In this document: piece by piece, positions 1,161 through 6,103 of the stretch
Numbering within the stretch: the first letter of the stretch is position 1
Layout: each line of letters starts with the position of its first letter
Assembly (NCBI GenBank): GCA_022711595.1
Contig: JAKLET010000022.1
Location: forward strand, 1 to 64,000
Direction of reading: 5' to 3'
From: Deltaproteobacteria bacterium
Lineage (GTDB): Bacteria; Desulfobacterota; Syntrophorhabdia; Syntrophorhabdales; Syntrophorhabdaceae
Length of the DNA stretch: 64,000 nt
Position numbers and translations under genes: made by a program
Notes under the pieces: generated by a model
What the model was told of the DNA's origin: nothing
Database searches by the model: none
What the model saw: the letters and a program-made list of their open reading frames with translations, nothing else

Positions 1161-2384
1161 CTATGAATTATAAAGAAGAGGGTTTTTCGTCTTCGACGTC
1201 AAAGCCTTGATCGCGTCCTTCAAGCCGTCAATGGTCAGTTCGAACATGGGGAACACTTTGCCGATGGTATCAACTGTGTAATGACCCCAGAAATTCCTGT
1301 GCGTGGGGTTGAGCCAGACGGAATGAGGGAAGTGGTCTTTGAGCCTCGCAAGCCATTCCAGGCCGGGCTTGTCATTGGTAGAAAAATAGTCGATGCAGCC
1401 GTTGATATCGAACAGTTCCGAATAGGCCATCCGCGCGTCGCCGACAAGTATTAATTTATAGTTCTTATTGAAAAGCGAAAAGAGCTTCTCTGTTGGAACT
1501 CTTTTATAGTTGGCTATGTCTTCATAGATGTCCTGATAGATGCAATTGTGGAAAAAATAGTAACGGAATTCTTTGAAGTGGTCCGTCTGGGTAGCCGCCG
1601 AGAAGAGTTTCTCACAAAGCTCCGTGTAGGGAAGCATCGACCCTCCCGTATCCATGAGCAGTATGATCCGGACCGAGTTCTCCCGCGACCTGTTGAACAC
1701 CAGCTCGATCTCGCCGCCTTCTTTGGCTGTCTTGTCGATGGTCTCGTCGATATCGAGCTCTTCCTGGGAGCCCTCCCGCTTCAACTCGCGCAGTTTTTTA
1801 AGGGCCATCTTTGTCTGTCTCACGTCGAGTATGATATCGTTGCGATAGTTGCGGAACCTTCTTTCTTCAGCAACCTTCGCAGCAGACTGCATCCACGATT
1901 CCCCGCCGACCCTGATGCCGCCCGGATGGTATCCATACGCCCCAAAGGGGGAGTAACCTCCCGTGCCCACCCATTTATGTCCGCCGTCGTGGCGTTCTTT
2001 CTGCTCTTTCAGGCGCTCCCTGAACTGCCGCATCAACTCTTCCATGTCATGGGTCCGCTTGAATTCCTCGAGTTGTTTCTGAAATTCCATCATCTCTTCG
2101 GGGCTCATCTTCGGAAGCCGGTTCAGCGGGTTTTCGAGCCAGTCAAGGACCTTTTCCAGCTCAACGTCCTGAGTCGCGATCCCTCCAAAGAACTCCTGGA
2201 AGGCAAGGTCATAGGCATCATAGTACGCCTCGCTTTTAACGAGGAATGCCCTGCCTATATAATAGAGATGGTTGAGGCTCGACTGGAAATGCCCGTTGTA
2301 CATCGCCTCTATGAAAGACATCCATTCCGTTATGGATACAGGTACTCCCTTCCTGCGCAGAACAAAGAAAAAATCGATGAACAT
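1161..2384 (-). CDS. VWA domain protein (CoxE type), partner of MoxR
   Basis: 407 residues. The C-terminal half (about 235-400) is a von Willebrand A domain with a MIDAS-like D245-T-G-G-S249 motif; the family usual is DxSxS, so the third position is glycine. The N-terminal half is a helical CoxE-type region with a charged, probably coiled segment at 95-135 and a Gly/Tyr-rich loop at 138-160. Proteins of this family work with a MoxR AAA+ ATPase, probably as chaperones inserting metals or remodelling complexes. It starts 7 nt after the moxR stop, with the end of the moxR frame (AGAAGAAGG) serving as ribosome-binding site, so the two are almost certainly co-translated. The client is unknown: no CO dehydrogenase or methanol dehydrogenase genes are nearby. 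Confidence 0.88.
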   Translation of the reverse strand: MFIDFFFVLRRKGVPVSITEWMSFIEAMYNGHFQSSLNHLYYIGRAFLVKSEAYYDAYDLAFQEFFGGIATQDVELEKVLDWLENPLNRLPKMSPEEMMEFQKQLEEFKRTHDMEELMRQFRERLKEQKERHDGGHKWVGTGGYSPFGAYGYHPGGIRVGGESWMQSAAKVAEERRFRNYRNDIILDVRQTKMALKKLRELKREGSQEELDIDETIDKTAKEGGEIELVFNRSRENSVRIILLMDTGGSMLPYTELCEKLFSAATQTDHFKEFRYYFFHNCIYQDIYEDIANYKRVPTEKLFSLFNKNYKLILVGDARMAYSELFDINGCIDYFSTNDKPGLEWLARLKDHFPHSVWLNPTHRNFWGHYTVDTIGKVFPMFELTIDGLKDAIKALTSKTKNPLLYNS

Positions 2385-2391
2385 CTGTATC

Positions 2392-3246
2392 TTACCTTCT
2401 TCTAAAACCGAACCCGCTGCCCTGATTGGAAGAGAGGCGCACGAACCTGTCCGTGTCCTGCTCGTTTTTCAAGAGCGTGCCGAGAAAGGGTATCTCGGAG
2501 GTTATCTTTTCGATCTTGATGCCGCCCAGTGAAAGGGCTTTGATCCAATCGAGAAGTTCACTCGTGGAGGGTTTCTTCTTAATACCTTCCATTTCCCTGA
2601 TCCAGTAAAACTTCTTCATCGCCTCTCTGACAAGCTTGTCCTCGATGTCGGGGTAGTGGACCTTGACTATGCTTTCCATCATCTCCGAATCTGGGAACTC
2701 TATGTAATAGAATATACATCTCCTCAAAAAAGCATCGGGGAGCTCTTTTTCGGAGTTGCTCGTAATGATGACGATGGGCCTGTGCTTCGCCGTGACCTCT
2801 TCGTCAAGTTCGTTGACATGGAAGGTCATCTCGTCAAGTTCGTTGAGCAGATCGTTGGGAAATTCAATGTCGGCCTTGTCGATCTCGTCTATGAGCAACA
2901 CGACCTGTTCATCGCTCTGAAATGCCTGCCCGAGTCTTCCCATCTTAATGTACTGCCTTATGTCGCTGATGTCCTTGTCTTTGAACCTGGCATCGTTGAG
3001 CCTCTGAACCGTATCATAGACATAGAGGCCGTCACGGGCCTTTGTGGTCGATTTGATGTTCCAGATTAAAAGCTTTTTATTAAGTGCCCGGGCGATACTG
3101 TGGGCAAGCAGCGTCTTGCCCGTGCCTGGCTCACCCTTGACTACAAGGGGTTTTCTCAGAACCACCGCAACGTTCACGATCTCCATAAGAGGTTTGGATG
3201 CTATATAATCTTCGCTGCCGTGGTATCCCTGTGATCCGCCTGCCAT
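2392..3246 (-). CDS. MoxR-family AAA+ ATPase
   Basis: 284 residues, the usual length. Walker A GEPGTGKT at 38-45, Walker B LLIDEID with D120-E121, sensor-1 Asn at about 164 in IVIITSNSEKELPD, and an arginine pair at 175-176 in the Arg-finger position. The start ATG has a strong AAGGAGG six bases upstream. MoxR ATPases remodel protein complexes together with a VWA partner, here the next gene. Upstream is a consensus sigma70 promoter (TTGACA-17-TATAAT) with a palindrome directly after the -10 box, so the pair looks tightly repressed in some condition. The target complex cannot be told from the window. Confidence 0.92.
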   Translation of the reverse strand: MAGGSQGYHGSEDYIASKPLMEIVNVAVVLRKPLVVKGEPGTGKTLLAHSIARALNKKLLIWNIKSTTKARDGLYVYDTVQRLNDARFKDKDISDIRQYIKMGRLGQAFQSDEQVVLLIDEIDKADIEFPNDLLNELDEMTFHVNELDEEVTAKHRPIVIITSNSEKELPDAFLRRCIFYYIEFPDSEMMESIVKVHYPDIEDKLVREAMKKFYWIREMEGIKKKPSTSELLDWIKALSLGGIKIEKITSEIPFLGTLLKNEQDTDRFVRLSSNQGSGFGFRRR

Positions 3247-3386: not shown

Positions 3387-3415
3387 TTGACAAATACCTG
3401 TTTTTACTTTTTAAT
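3387..3415 (+). promoter_or_regulatory. promoter of the Phe/Tyr leader
   Basis: TTGACA (3387-3392), 17-nt spacer, TTTAAT (3410-3415), giving a predicted start near 3422. The -35 is perfect and the -10 matches five of six. The transcript would begin almost at the first usable leader ATG (3423/3426), so the leader peptide would be nearly leaderless. Confidence 0.65.
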
Positions 3416-3422
3416 GTTCAAT

Positions 3423-3497
3423 ATGATGAAAGAGCCTGTGTGCTATTTTTACTTCTTCTTCTTTAGAAGCCTGCACCCGGGCATAACTTTGCGCTAA
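3423..3497 (+). CDS. Phe/Tyr attenuator leader peptide
   Basis: A short frame starting at ATG 3423 or 3426 (an in-frame ATG at 3414 overlaps the -10 box) and ending at TAA 3495-3497, 24 residues from 3423. Codons 3444-3464 read Tyr-Phe-Tyr-Phe-Phe-Phe-Phe, the classical composition of pheA/pheST leader peptides. The codons just after (3468-3479) encode the 5' arm of an antiterminator, and the stop lies 9 nt before a strong terminator. No good Shine-Dalgarno is visible; initiation could be leaderless or at GTG 3438. Too short for homology; the call rests on codon content and RNA architecture. Confidence 0.7.
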   Translation: MMKEPVCYFYFFFFRSLHPGITLR

Positions 3498-3541
3498 AAG
3501 AGCAAAGGGCCATGGGTGCAGGAAACCCATGGCCCTTTTTG
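3470..3541 (+). promoter_or_regulatory. attenuator: mutually exclusive antiterminator and terminator
   Basis: Terminator: a perfect 12-bp stem, 3506-3517 with 3525-3536, 7-nt loop, then TTTTTGTCTT. Antiterminator: a perfect 9-bp pairing of CCTGCACCC (3470-3478) with GGGTGCAGG (3514-3522), enclosing a 6-bp hairpin (3487-3492 with 3502-3507). The two share bases 3514-3517 and cannot coexist. A ribosome stalled early in the Tyr/Phe run leaves 3470-3478 free to form the antiterminator; one that reaches the stop at 3497 covers it, so the terminator forms. This is the classical amino-acid attenuation logic, inferred from pairing only. Confidence 0.75.
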
Positions 3542-3548
3542 TCTTAAA

Positions 3549-3590
3549 GGCCATGGGGTGGACTCATGGCCCTTTTTATTAAAAAGGAGG
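3549..3590 (+). promoter_or_regulatory. second terminator-like hairpin and sequestered ribosome-binding site
   Basis: GGCCATG (3549-3555) pairs with CATGGCC (3565-3571) and is followed by CTTTTTATT. GGCCATGGG (3549-3557) can instead pair with CCCATGGCC (3526-3534), the 3' arm of the first terminator, giving a chain of alternating pairings. In addition CCTTTTT (3571-3577) can pair with AAAAAGG (3581-3587) over a 3-nt loop, covering most of the AAGGAGG ribosome-binding site (3584-3590) of the first aminotransferase. Confidence 0.55.
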
Positions 3591-3594
3591 ACGG

Positions 3595-4785
3595 ATGATT
3601 GTTTCCCGCCAGATCCAAAAACTGATTGCAGATCAGGAAGGGTGGACCCGCAGGATGTTCGAGGAAGGTCTCAGGATAAAGAAGCTTTACGGTGAAGAGA
3701 ACGTCTATGACTTCTCGCTGGGAAACCCCGATACAGAGCCGCCGCGGGAGCTCCAGAAAACCCTTGCGGAATCGCTGCTGCACCCATCGAAGGGAATGCA
3801 CCGCTACATGACGAACAGCGGTTATGAGGAAGTGCGCCGCGATGTCGCCGGTTATCTTGAGGAGATATACGGTCTGCCATTCACGGCATCGCATGTTTTC
3901 ATGACCAACGGAAGTGCGGGCGGTCTCAACATCCTCCTGAAGAGCATGCTTGACAGGGGTGACGAGGTGATCGTCCCGACCCCATTCTTCTGGGAGTTCA
4001 AGAACTACGTCCACAATCACGGGGGCAAGCTGGTAACGGTCAGATCAAAAGATGATTTTCAGCTCGACGTGGACAGGATCGCTGCAGCCATAACAAAGAA
4101 GACAAAGGCCGTCCTTTTGAACAGTCCCAACAATCCGACTGGCGCCGTCTATTCCAGGAAGAGCATCGATGATCTCACCTCGCTGCTCAACGAGAGGCGC
4201 GGCCAGGGCCAGGATATTTACCTCATAGCCGATGATGCCTACCGAAAACTCGTTTATGACGGCACTGTCCTTCCCAATATTTTCGCAGGATATGACCTTG
4301 CCTTCTCAATCAATTCGCATTCAAAAGACCTTGCACTGCCCGGTGAGCGCATTGGCTACATCGCCATATCACCCCGCATGCCTGATTTTGAAGTGCTCGT
4401 ATCGGGCCTTATGATCACCATGAGGACCCTCGGGTTCGTCAATGCCCCGGCCCTGTTCCAGAGGGCCGTTTCAATATTCCAGAGAACCTCTGTCGATATC
4501 GGGGAATATCAGCGCAAGAGGGACGTGCTGTATGACGCGCTGATGGAGGGAGGCTTCGAATGTGTAAAGCCGGCAGGCGCCTTCTACATGTTCCCCAGAT
4601 CACCTGAGCCCGACGAACTGAATTTCGTCCGCTCCCTGCAGCAGGAGGAGCGCATCATGGTCGTGCCCGGACGGGGGTTCGGAAAGAAAGGCTACTTCAG
4701 GATCGCCTACTGCGTCCCCATGGAAACGATACTCAAGAGCCGGGACGGATTCATCAGAATGGGAAAACGCTTTAAAAAGAGGTGA
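3595..4785 (+). CDS. class I/II PLP aminotransferase, copy 1 (probably aromatic)
   Basis: 396 residues, full length for fold-type I class I/II aminotransferases. Visible motifs: SLGNPDTEPP near the N-terminus, NNPTG at 179-183, the PLP-contacting DDAYR at 213-217, and the Schiff-base lysine K244 in SHSKDLALPGERIGY. Strong AAGGAGG ribosome-binding site. The next gene is a paralogue. Family members transfer amino groups between an amino acid and a 2-oxo acid; substrate cannot be read from these motifs. The Phe/Tyr leader upstream is the best clue and points to the last step of phenylalanine/tyrosine synthesis (phenylpyruvate, hydroxyphenylpyruvate or prephenate as acceptor). Alternatives are aspartate or branched-chain substrates. 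Confidence 0.88.
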   Translation: MIVSRQIQKLIADQEGWTRRMFEEGLRIKKLYGEENVYDFSLGNPDTEPPRELQKTLAESLLHPSKGMHRYMTNSGYEEVRRDVAGYLEEIYGLPFTASHVFMTNGSAGGLNILLKSMLDRGDEVIVPTPFFWEFKNYVHNHGGKLVTVRSKDDFQLDVDRIAAAITKKTKAVLLNSPNNPTGAVYSRKSIDDLTSLLNERRGQGQDIYLIADDAYRKLVYDGTVLPNIFAGYDLAFSINSHSKDLALPGERIGYIAISPRMPDFEVLVSGLMITMRTLGFVNAPALFQRAVSIFQRTSVDIGEYQRKRDVLYDALMEGGFECVKPAGAFYMFPRSPEPDELNFVRSLQQEERIMVVPGRGFGKKGYFRIAYCVPMETILKSRDGFIRMGKRFKKR

Positions 4786-4791
4786 AATATA

Positions 4792-5976
4792 ATGGGTATT
4801 TCCAAAGCTATCAGCAAATCTATGAGGGACTCCTCCTGGATCAGGGCCATGTTCGAGGAAGGGGAGAAGATGAAGAAGGTCCACGGCCCTGAGAACATAC
4901 TCGACTTCACCCTCGGCAATCCCGTAATGGAGCCTCCGGCCGAACTCAAGGAAGAGCTCGTCAGGATCGTCACATCCGACATCAAGGGCATGCACCGTTA
5001 CATGACGAACAGCGGTTACGAGGACGTCCGGGGTGAGATCGCCCGGTTCCATAAGGAAAAATCAGGTCTTCCCTTCACGAAAGACAACATCGTCATGACC
5101 GTAGGCTCTGCCGGCGGCATGAATGTAGCCCTGAAGTCCCTTCTTGACCCTGGCAACGAAGTGATCGTACCTATCCCCTTCTTTGTGGAGTTCAAGTTTT
5201 ACATTGAGAACCACGGCGGGGTCATGAAGCTTGTCGACACCGGGGAGGACTTCCATCTCGACATAGAGAAGATCGAAAAGGCCATAAGTAAAAAGACAAA
5301 GGCCATCATAATCAACTCGCCCAACAATCCCACCGGCGTCGTCTATAACGAAAAAGACCTCAGGGACCTGGCGGCGCTTCTGCACAAACGCAGGGAAAGG
5401 GGGCAGCGTATCTTCCTGCTTTCCGACGAGGCCTACAGGAAGATCATCTATGACGGCATCGTTCTGCCAGACGTATTCAATATCTACGAGGACACCATAA
5501 CGGTGACCTCCCATTCAAAGGACCTGGCCCTTCCGGGCGAGCGCATCGGCTACATCTCGGCCTCGCCGCTTATCAAGAACCTGAAGCCCCTTATGGACGC
5601 CATGATCTTCTCGAACAGGATCCTCGGGTTCATAAACGCACCCGCGCTTATGCAGCGGCTCGTAGGAAAGTTCCAGCAGAACAGCATCGACGTTCTCGAC
5701 TACCAGGGCAAAAGGGACGCCATCTACAACATTCTTGTGGAATCCGGGTTCGACGTGATAAAACCCATGGGCGCCTTTTACATCTTCCCCAGATCGCCTG
5801 AACCCGACGATATTGCCTTCGTGAGAGAGCTCCAGAAGCACCACATCCTCGCGGTACCGGGGGTCGGTTTCGGTACTCCCGGTTATTTCCGGCTCGCCTA
5901 TTGCGTCGATATGGACATCATCGAGCGTTCACGGAAATTCTTCCTCGAGCTGGGATTGAAGAACGGCAAGAAATAA
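4792..5976 (+). CDS. class I/II PLP aminotransferase, copy 2 (paralogue)
   Basis: 394 residues, clearly related along its length to the preceding gene: same LGNP motif, GMHRYMTNSGYEDVR block, NNPTG at 178-182, SDEAYRK at 211-217 and Schiff-base K243 in SHSKDLALPGERIGY. It begins 6 nt after the first copy, with GAGGTG as ribosome-binding site, so both are one transcript under the same attenuator. The pair arose by tandem duplication. The two copies differ in the substrate-facing N-terminal loops (for example NPDTEPP against NPVMEPP), so they may have split substrates, such as phenylalanine against tyrosine. That split is inference. Confidence 0.88.
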   Translation: MGISKAISKSMRDSSWIRAMFEEGEKMKKVHGPENILDFTLGNPVMEPPAELKEELVRIVTSDIKGMHRYMTNSGYEDVRGEIARFHKEKSGLPFTKDNIVMTVGSAGGMNVALKSLLDPGNEVIVPIPFFVEFKFYIENHGGVMKLVDTGEDFHLDIEKIEKAISKKTKAIIINSPNNPTGVVYNEKDLRDLAALLHKRRERGQRIFLLSDEAYRKIIYDGIVLPDVFNIYEDTITVTSHSKDLALPGERIGYISASPLIKNLKPLMDAMIFSNRILGFINAPALMQRLVGKFQQNSIDVLDYQGKRDAIYNILVESGFDVIKPMGAFYIFPRSPEPDDIAFVRELQKHHILAVPGVGFGTPGYFRLAYCVDMDIIERSRKFFLELGLKNGKK

Positions 5977-5987
5977 AAACAGGTAAT

Positions 5988-6103
5988 GTTTTTCTGGTTT
6001 CTATAGTTTCTATAGTTTCTTTAGTTTCTCCGGTTTCTTTCGTTTGGCTTTTTATTTATAATCAACCGGAGAAACTAAAGAAACCGGAAAAACCAAACAA
6101 ACC
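5988..6103. repeat. inverted array of 9-bp words (GTTTCTNNN) between convergent genes
   Basis: Starts 12 nt after the second aminotransferase. The left arm is seven 9-bp words of the form GTTTCTNNN (5988-6050); the right arm (6064-6103) carries complementary words. 6015-6035 and 6064-6084 form a perfect 21-bp inverted repeat with a 28-nt T-rich loop. Likely a bidirectional terminator for the aminotransferases (+) and bioD (-). The word type recurs at 53640-53743. Confidence 0.8.

Follow-up and report, generated by a model that had tools for sequence, protein, structure and literature searches.

What does the leader in front of a tandem aminotransferase pair sense, how would it switch the genes, and what does it tell about the enzymes behind it? 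The question arises in a 64,000-nt stretch of DNA (contig JAKLET010000022.1, positions 1 to 64,000; the window, always at its full length) that belongs to the Syntrophorhabdaceae genome G000 (3.55 Mb, completeness 100%), whose nearest named relatives are Syntrophorhabdus MAGs. The locus is laid out as follows.

3387-3415, plus strand, sigma-70-like promoter TTGACA-17-TTTAAT (TTGACA 3387-3392, TTTAAT 3410-3415)
3423-3497, plus strand, leader frame, translated as MMKEPVCYFYFFFFRSLHPGITLR (ATG 3423, stop TAA 3495-3497)
3444-3464, plus strand, regulatory codons Tyr-Phe-Tyr-Phe-Phe-Phe-Phe (TAT TTT TAC TTC TTC TTC TTT), from sequence
3470-3478, plus strand, arm 2, 5' strand of the antiterminator (CCTGCACCC), pairing with 3514-3522 (GGGTGCAGG) over a perfect 9 bp
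3487-3507, plus strand, small hairpin CTTTGC...GCAAAG in the antiterminator loop, from folding; found in most relatives
3504-3522, plus strand, arm 3, 5' strand of terminator T1 (3504-3517) overlapping the antiterminator 3' strand (3514-3522), from sequence and covariation
3507-3517 and 3525-3535, plus strand, T1 stem (GGGCCATGGGT and ACCCATGGCCC), followed by five T
3525-3540, plus strand, arm 4, 3' strand of T1 (ACCCATGGCCC) with T-run, from sequence, covariation and complementarity to arm 5
3546-3558, plus strand, arm 5, 5' strand of a second terminator, T2, from covariation; relay partner of arm 4
3562-3577, plus strand, arm 6, 3' strand of T2 with T-run, from sequence, covariation and folding
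3584-3590, plus strand, ribosome-binding site AAGGAGG of aminotransferase 1, from sequence
3595-4785, plus strand, aminotransferase 1, PRK06836/NF005305 family, 396 aa (514 bits, cut-off 376)
4792-5976, plus strand, aminotransferase 2, same family, 394 aa (532 bits, cut-off 376)

Leader, alternative hairpins and genes

A preliminary description of this DNA had proposed a Phe/Tyr attenuator with one terminator. The promoter is present where it had been placed, and the perfect 9-bp antiterminator that shares bases with the terminator was confirmed in the sequence. The Tyr/Phe codons are exact as well, but the frame that carries them does not stop at the Phe run. It continues through arm 2 to position 3497. 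The terminator is a perfect stem with a T-run, of 11 bp (14 bp counting flanking A-U pairs) instead of the 12 bp claimed. Overlooked were the course of the frame through arm 2, the second terminator hairpin (T2, 3549-3571, T-run 3573-3577, just before the ribosome-binding site), the regulon-wide use of the device and the missing genes of the chorismate route. Known ribosome-mediated attenuators have a leader frame with regulatory codons and a 2:3 antiterminator that competes with a 3:4 terminator (PMC1183508). Here we found an aromatic-codon leader frame, an antiterminator and a terminator that share a strand, and a U-run terminator before the gene.

In the window, 7 nt separate the end of the -10 box from the leader ATG. 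Since, among the 36 leaders of the order whose promoter could be read, 34 have their first ATG 6-10 nt (median 8) past the -10 box, transcripts of these leaders are predicted, from promoter positions, to start at or beside the leader AUG and hence to be leaderless. In family f10 this spacing rises to 14-24 nt and often comes with a stretch rich in purines.

The leader region folded more stably than 200 of 200 dinucleotide shuffles (z = -3.98). Mean local energies of the helices were -26.3 (2:3), -21.9 (3:4), -18.4 (4:5) and -18.6 (5:6) kcal/mol. Constrained folding gave exactly the two alternative states. When the leader was blocked and 2:3 retained, the window RNA formed 4:5 and lost 5:6; with arm 2 covered, it formed 3:4 and 5:6. 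The entire 2:3 helix stays free of a ribosome whose A site is at 3444-3456; an A site at 3462 puts part of arm 2 under the ribosome. The stop codon lies 17 nt beyond arm 2. A fold with only 3479-3509 covered still permits 2:3, so that for a ribosome at the stop codon the off state is argued on steric grounds. In the window we saw no strong 1:2 pause hairpin, only a 5-bp local one (GCCTG/CGGGC); a 1:2 pairing (AGAGATCAT/ATGATCTCT) is visible in genus g8.

The two aminotransferases share 54% identity (pairwise comparison), and both score above the curated membership threshold of 376 bits. Upstream of the attenuator a divergent pair on the minus strand (1161-3246) encodes a MoxR-like AAA ATPase and a VWA/CoxE-like protein. 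An imperfect 40-nt inverted repeat (GGTTTCTATAGTTTCTATAGTTTC... / ...GAAACTAAAGAAACC) lies 3' of aminotransferase 2 (5996-6103), and similar repeats, of the TTTAGTTTC type, stand upstream of the gene in locus L029.

Conservation and covariation of the leader

Upstream regions were read from genome-search loci, one contig scan and retrieved stretches. They gave 54 distinct leaders from at least six bacterial families in which the aromatic-codon leader, the antiterminator and the terminator are kept: Syntrophorhabdaceae (f1), f2 and f3 of the same order, and f10, f13 and f82, where the gene is single-copy. One of the 54 (L173) stands before a different operon and not an aminotransferase gene. 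The device was later found in a further family, f26 (L284). Nearly every genome of the family and order has the tandem pair, and most other matching genomes of the phylum have a single copy. No such leader was seen before several more distant, single-copy homologues in some other families (L134-L136, L065-L068). A broad DNA pattern run over 395 genomes matched real attenuators in f10, f13, f82 and genome G210; most of its other matches that were read look like coding sequence. A single aminotransferase-pair leader (L030, G033:C23) was read with one terminator only, T2 being absent.

The aromatic run and the HP ending of the leader are kept in relatives. Taken over 52 leaders, F, Y and W make up 75% of the eight-codon tract in frame versus 27-30% in the other two frames, codon position 1 is T in 80%, and A occurs 152 times at codon position 2 versus 32 and 20 times at positions 1 and 3. 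Conserved codons and a biased use of codon positions mark the aromatic tract as a conserved coding sequence. The leader of L029 (G017:C162) is almost identical to that of L127, but its stop is changed from TGA to TGG and the frame reads through both terminators, possibly through an assembly error or in a decaying copy.

In an alignment of 44 leaders the off structure (3:4 plus 5:6) forms in 97.6% of cells, and 3:4 alone is paired in 98.8%; the on structure (2:3 plus 4:5) forms in 89.3%. For the off structure 64 cells are changed on both sides, where shuffles give 20.4 and slid pairings no more than 25; for the on structure the figures are 65, 25.5 and no more than 33. Because homologous loci lack independence, these shuffle values, and the Fisher value given below, overstate significance. 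In the antiterminator one pair is GC in 31 leaders and UA in 13, the next is UA, GC or CG, and the 2:3 helix reads CTTGCACCC:GGGTGCAAG in f1 and GGTCACCC:GGGTGACC in f10. The elements of the attenuator lie beyond chance because they are conserved in relatives and covary. The alignment proposed in the preliminary description thus recovered the leader and covarying stems both inside the order and in a number of neighbouring families, and its view that attenuation of this type precedes aminotransferases in the lineage gains support from the 54 leaders and their covariation.

A proposed relay between two terminators

We regard ribosome-mediated transcription attenuation of the aminotransferase pair, with a presumed response to Phe and Tyr, as very probable. 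Conservation, covariation, folds and gene-matched codons all back the Phe/Tyr attenuator first proposed, amended here to two terminators. The device would sense charged tRNA-Phe and tRNA-Tyr on a transcript predicted to begin at or beside the leader AUG. When both amino acids are plentiful, the ribosome would clear the aromatic codons and cover arm 2; 3:4 (T1) and 5:6 (T2) would then form, and polymerase would halt at either. When Phe or Tyr is scarce, the ribosome would stall at the first aromatic codons, arm 2 would capture arm 3, the freed arm 4 would capture arm 5, and arm 6 would stay unpaired, so that T1 and T2 fail jointly. Both the stalling and the termination are inferred.

A coupling of both terminators by the exchange of 3:4 plus 5:6 (off) for 2:3 plus 4:5 (on) is likely on several grounds. 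In each of the 68 tandem loci (17 of them before other genes or from further families), arm 4 can pair with arm 5, with no mismatch in a 5-bp core. Where arm 4 has C, arm 5 has G in 4 of 4 cases; where arm 4 has U, arm 5 has G in 5 of 64 (Fisher test, P-value 1.5e-4, relatedness ignored). The 4:5 duplex has an energy of -18.1 in native versus -16.7 in permuted combinations (0 of 20,000).

The main alternative is an ordinary Phe/Tyr attenuator that works through T1, with T2 a back-up terminator that resembles T1 by old duplication and takes part in no relay. Tandem terminators are common. Little variation is seen in most 4:5 pairs, and a palindromic CCATGG core recurs in both T1 and T2, so that their likeness could partly stem from such a duplication. 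Usable T2 is also lacking or weak at some loci (missing in L030 and several devices of DAHP operons, weak in L175 and L176), which means that the relay is not universal. T2 should nevertheless be conditional, because an unconditional T2, whose strong U-tract precedes the start codon, would prevent expression in the on state as much as in the off state and leave the genes hardly expressed. Arm 5 moreover tracks the changes of arm 4. In L123, arm 5 (GGCCATGAG) perfectly fits arm 4 (CTCATGGCC) but is mismatched with the arm 6 of the same locus; arm 5 also follows arm 4 in L270-L272 and L280. Finally, at two loci, L056/L119 (f2) and the Trp device of G000:C39 (L265), the U-tract of T1 is lost but arms 2-6 and a good T2 remain. 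Only a relay could link ribosome position to termination there; otherwise L056 and L265 would have no regulated terminator at all. An independent back-up T2 is therefore unlikely.

Sister devices with other codons

The exact window pattern occurs in G000 only at the window itself. An ORF scan and a leader covariance model, searched in 98 relatives, detected sister devices; covariance-model counts per genome are inflated, as palindromic stems score on both strands, and the weak matches were read in part. Three sister devices were found in G000.

G000:C3:34900-35061 (L191), minus strand, Tyr device with leader MMNAATISLFGYTYYYYYPNRHSCLALS and two terminators, then a class I aminotransferase
G000:C3, about 90.3-90.4 kb (L224:266-460), Trp device with leader MKNLQIKNWWWREL and two terminators, then a TrpB-like gene
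G000:C39:1232-1480 (L265/L285), minus strand, Trp device with leader MKHPVINSKWAWWWQTLLV, before a DctP-type TRAP solute-binding protein

The aminotransferase behind the Tyr device (418 aa) is related to PRK07777/PRK08912, and a genus relative has a Tyr device before the corresponding gene (L267, MMKVGTSFYYYYYYYTKGHS...). The TrpB-like gene of L224 is followed by an aminotransferase and indolepyruvate-oxidoreductase-like subunits; here and in L266 (G003), also before a TrpB-like gene, the Trp codons lie in the motifs NWWWREL and NWWWRKL. A Trp-codon attenuator at this place suggests that the oxidoreductase runs in the direction of synthesis. In L265/L285 the first hairpin has no U-tract and the second has one, and the Trp codons are a hint that the TRAP system behind them transports Trp or an indole acid.

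Relatives with an aro operon carry F+Y+W leaders before DAHP-synthase operons (the synthase profile-confirmed in L268 and L281, elsewhere recognised by similarity). Of 53 aminotransferase leaders, 1 has W in its aromatic tract; of 14 aro-operon leaders, 13 do. In G210 (L173) a one-terminator version precedes ADH synthase, pheA and tyrA. The match of codons to genes across paralogous devices is the strongest sequence evidence for function. A Phe-rich leader (NYSGFNFFCFFSFW) with tandem terminators was also seen upstream of a thiolase-like gene that has no obvious tie to aromatic biosynthesis (L274:403-531, G041:C89:18003-18131).

Enzyme substrates and metabolic setting

With good confidence, we predict phenylpyruvate and 4-hydroxyphenylpyruvate as the substrates of the two aminotransferases, which would form Phe and Tyr from them. 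Strong indirect support for the aromatic role comes from versions of the device with Y, W or FYW codons, which stand before genes of fitting function. The attenuator could also be real while the enzymes are not aromatic biosynthetic, being general aspartate/alanine enzymes under aromatic control or catabolic ones. No substrate is named in the PRK06836 family model, the title of the closest solved structure (3ele) is just Amino Transferase, and Syntrophorhabdus is a genus name associated with degraders of aromatic compounds. However, attenuation activates genes at amino acid shortage, which fits synthesis; this aminotransferase family and F/Y leaders recur together in at least six families; and other aminotransferases of G000 bear Y or W devices. 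A non-aromatic or catabolic function is accordingly quite improbable.

G000 gave no match to prephenate dehydratase, the prephenate dehydrogenase N-domain or chorismate synthase, each of which was found in 14 of 14 control genomes. Prephenate dehydratase is missing from 12 of 12 genomes of the genus and from most of the family, and chorismate synthase from 9 of the 12. These losses are patchy across the family; where both enzymes are present, their genes are usually close neighbours. Prephenate itself is an unlikely aminotransferase substrate in G000 because no chorismate synthase was found there. Arylpyruvates are probably made without chorismate, by a putative reductive carboxylation of aryl acids or by salvage, and import of aromatic amino acids may be another source. 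IOR genes were found in G000. Indolepyruvate-type ferredoxin oxidoreductases working in the carboxylating direction, or salvage, might supply arylpyruvates that would then be aminated to Phe, Tyr and Trp.

Relation to known attenuators

The window and 20 related loci had no match above the gathering score in Rfam (4227 models). Sub-threshold matches to plant miRNA models were rejected as chance products of the palindromic stems. Rfam found no T-box in the window, and none upstream of the homologues in 20 Clostridial, Treponema and other loci, the sole T-box lying downstream of the gene (L073); an upstream T-box before a Firmicutes homologue would have been an independent clue to the substrate. 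That the U/C-rich tract and hairpins form a protein- or metabolite-binding element with an incidental frame is highly improbable: the tract is U-rich, but the codon-position bias and open frame of 52 leaders, the fit of F/Y, Y, W and FYW versions to downstream genes (W in 1 of 53 versus 13 of 14) and the lack of a matching Rfam family speak against it.

With the enteric pheA and trp attenuators the aromatic device shares a regulatory-codon leader frame, the 2:3 versus 3:4 choice and a place upstream of biosynthetic genes. It differs in its aminotransferase targets, the second terminator probably coupled through 4:5, the predicted leaderless start, the apparent lack of a strong pause hairpin in the window and the lack of an Rfam sequence match. 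In the his operon attenuator, segments A-F pair as AB/CD/EF or as BC/DE (PMC10989985), and a chain of alternative pairings, as proposed here, relays the state of a stalled ribosome to a distant terminator. Six segments pair in two alternating registers in our device too, segment 1 being weak in the window. The his U-run follows EF only, whereas here a U-run follows both 3:4 and 5:6 in most loci, and not solely the last hairpin, so the relay would join two terminators; L056 and L265, with the first U-run lost, look his-like. Judged from these pairings, the device would act like the his relay yet differs in class by the U-run at both hairpins.

The rimP leader has tandem terminators, the upstream one with a potential antiterminator (PMC2965389), but it has other genes, another motif and no described aromatic leader frame. 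For the Desulfovibrio vulgaris aroA'-aroB'-pheA-aroF-tyrA-trp supraoperon an attenuator was predicted (Merino database, cited in PMC1173090). This is predicted aromatic attenuation in a deltaproteobacterium as well, and in G210 (L173) ADH synthase-pheA-tyrA stands behind a related device; the supraoperon passages of PMC1173090 describe no leader peptide, relay or aminotransferase target. Leader peptides without a 5' untranslated region are known from Streptomyces lividans (PMC8079986), in another phylum and before other genes, whereas the leaderless start here is a promoter prediction. We found no description of a two-terminator aromatic attenuator device in the open-access papers searched. 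Ribosome-mediated attenuation is known, while the two-terminator relay and its use here look new.

Implications

Taken together, these data fit, if only tentatively, a joint reading of aromatic attenuators at the level of the phylum, with a two-terminator 2:3/4:5 relay, and of Syntrophorhabdus as a genus that has apparently lost chorismate synthesis and aminates arylpyruvates to Phe, Tyr and Trp by a replacement route with a biosynthetic oxidoreductase cluster. The loci with the first U-run lost offer natural variants for dissecting this compact two-terminator design. Re-coded for Tyr, Trp or all three amino acids, the same device precedes other aromatic amino acid genes in G000 and its relatives, and in some of these genomes the usual pathway is missing. 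The leader codons name the amino acid served, and so point to aromatic roles for the aminotransferases, the TrpB-like/indolepyruvate oxidoreductase cluster and the TRAP transporter, which gene sequence alone leaves unspecified. Such codon-labelled leaders allow a direct test of how syntrophic bacteria get Phe, Tyr and Trp when no chorismate pathway is detectable in them.
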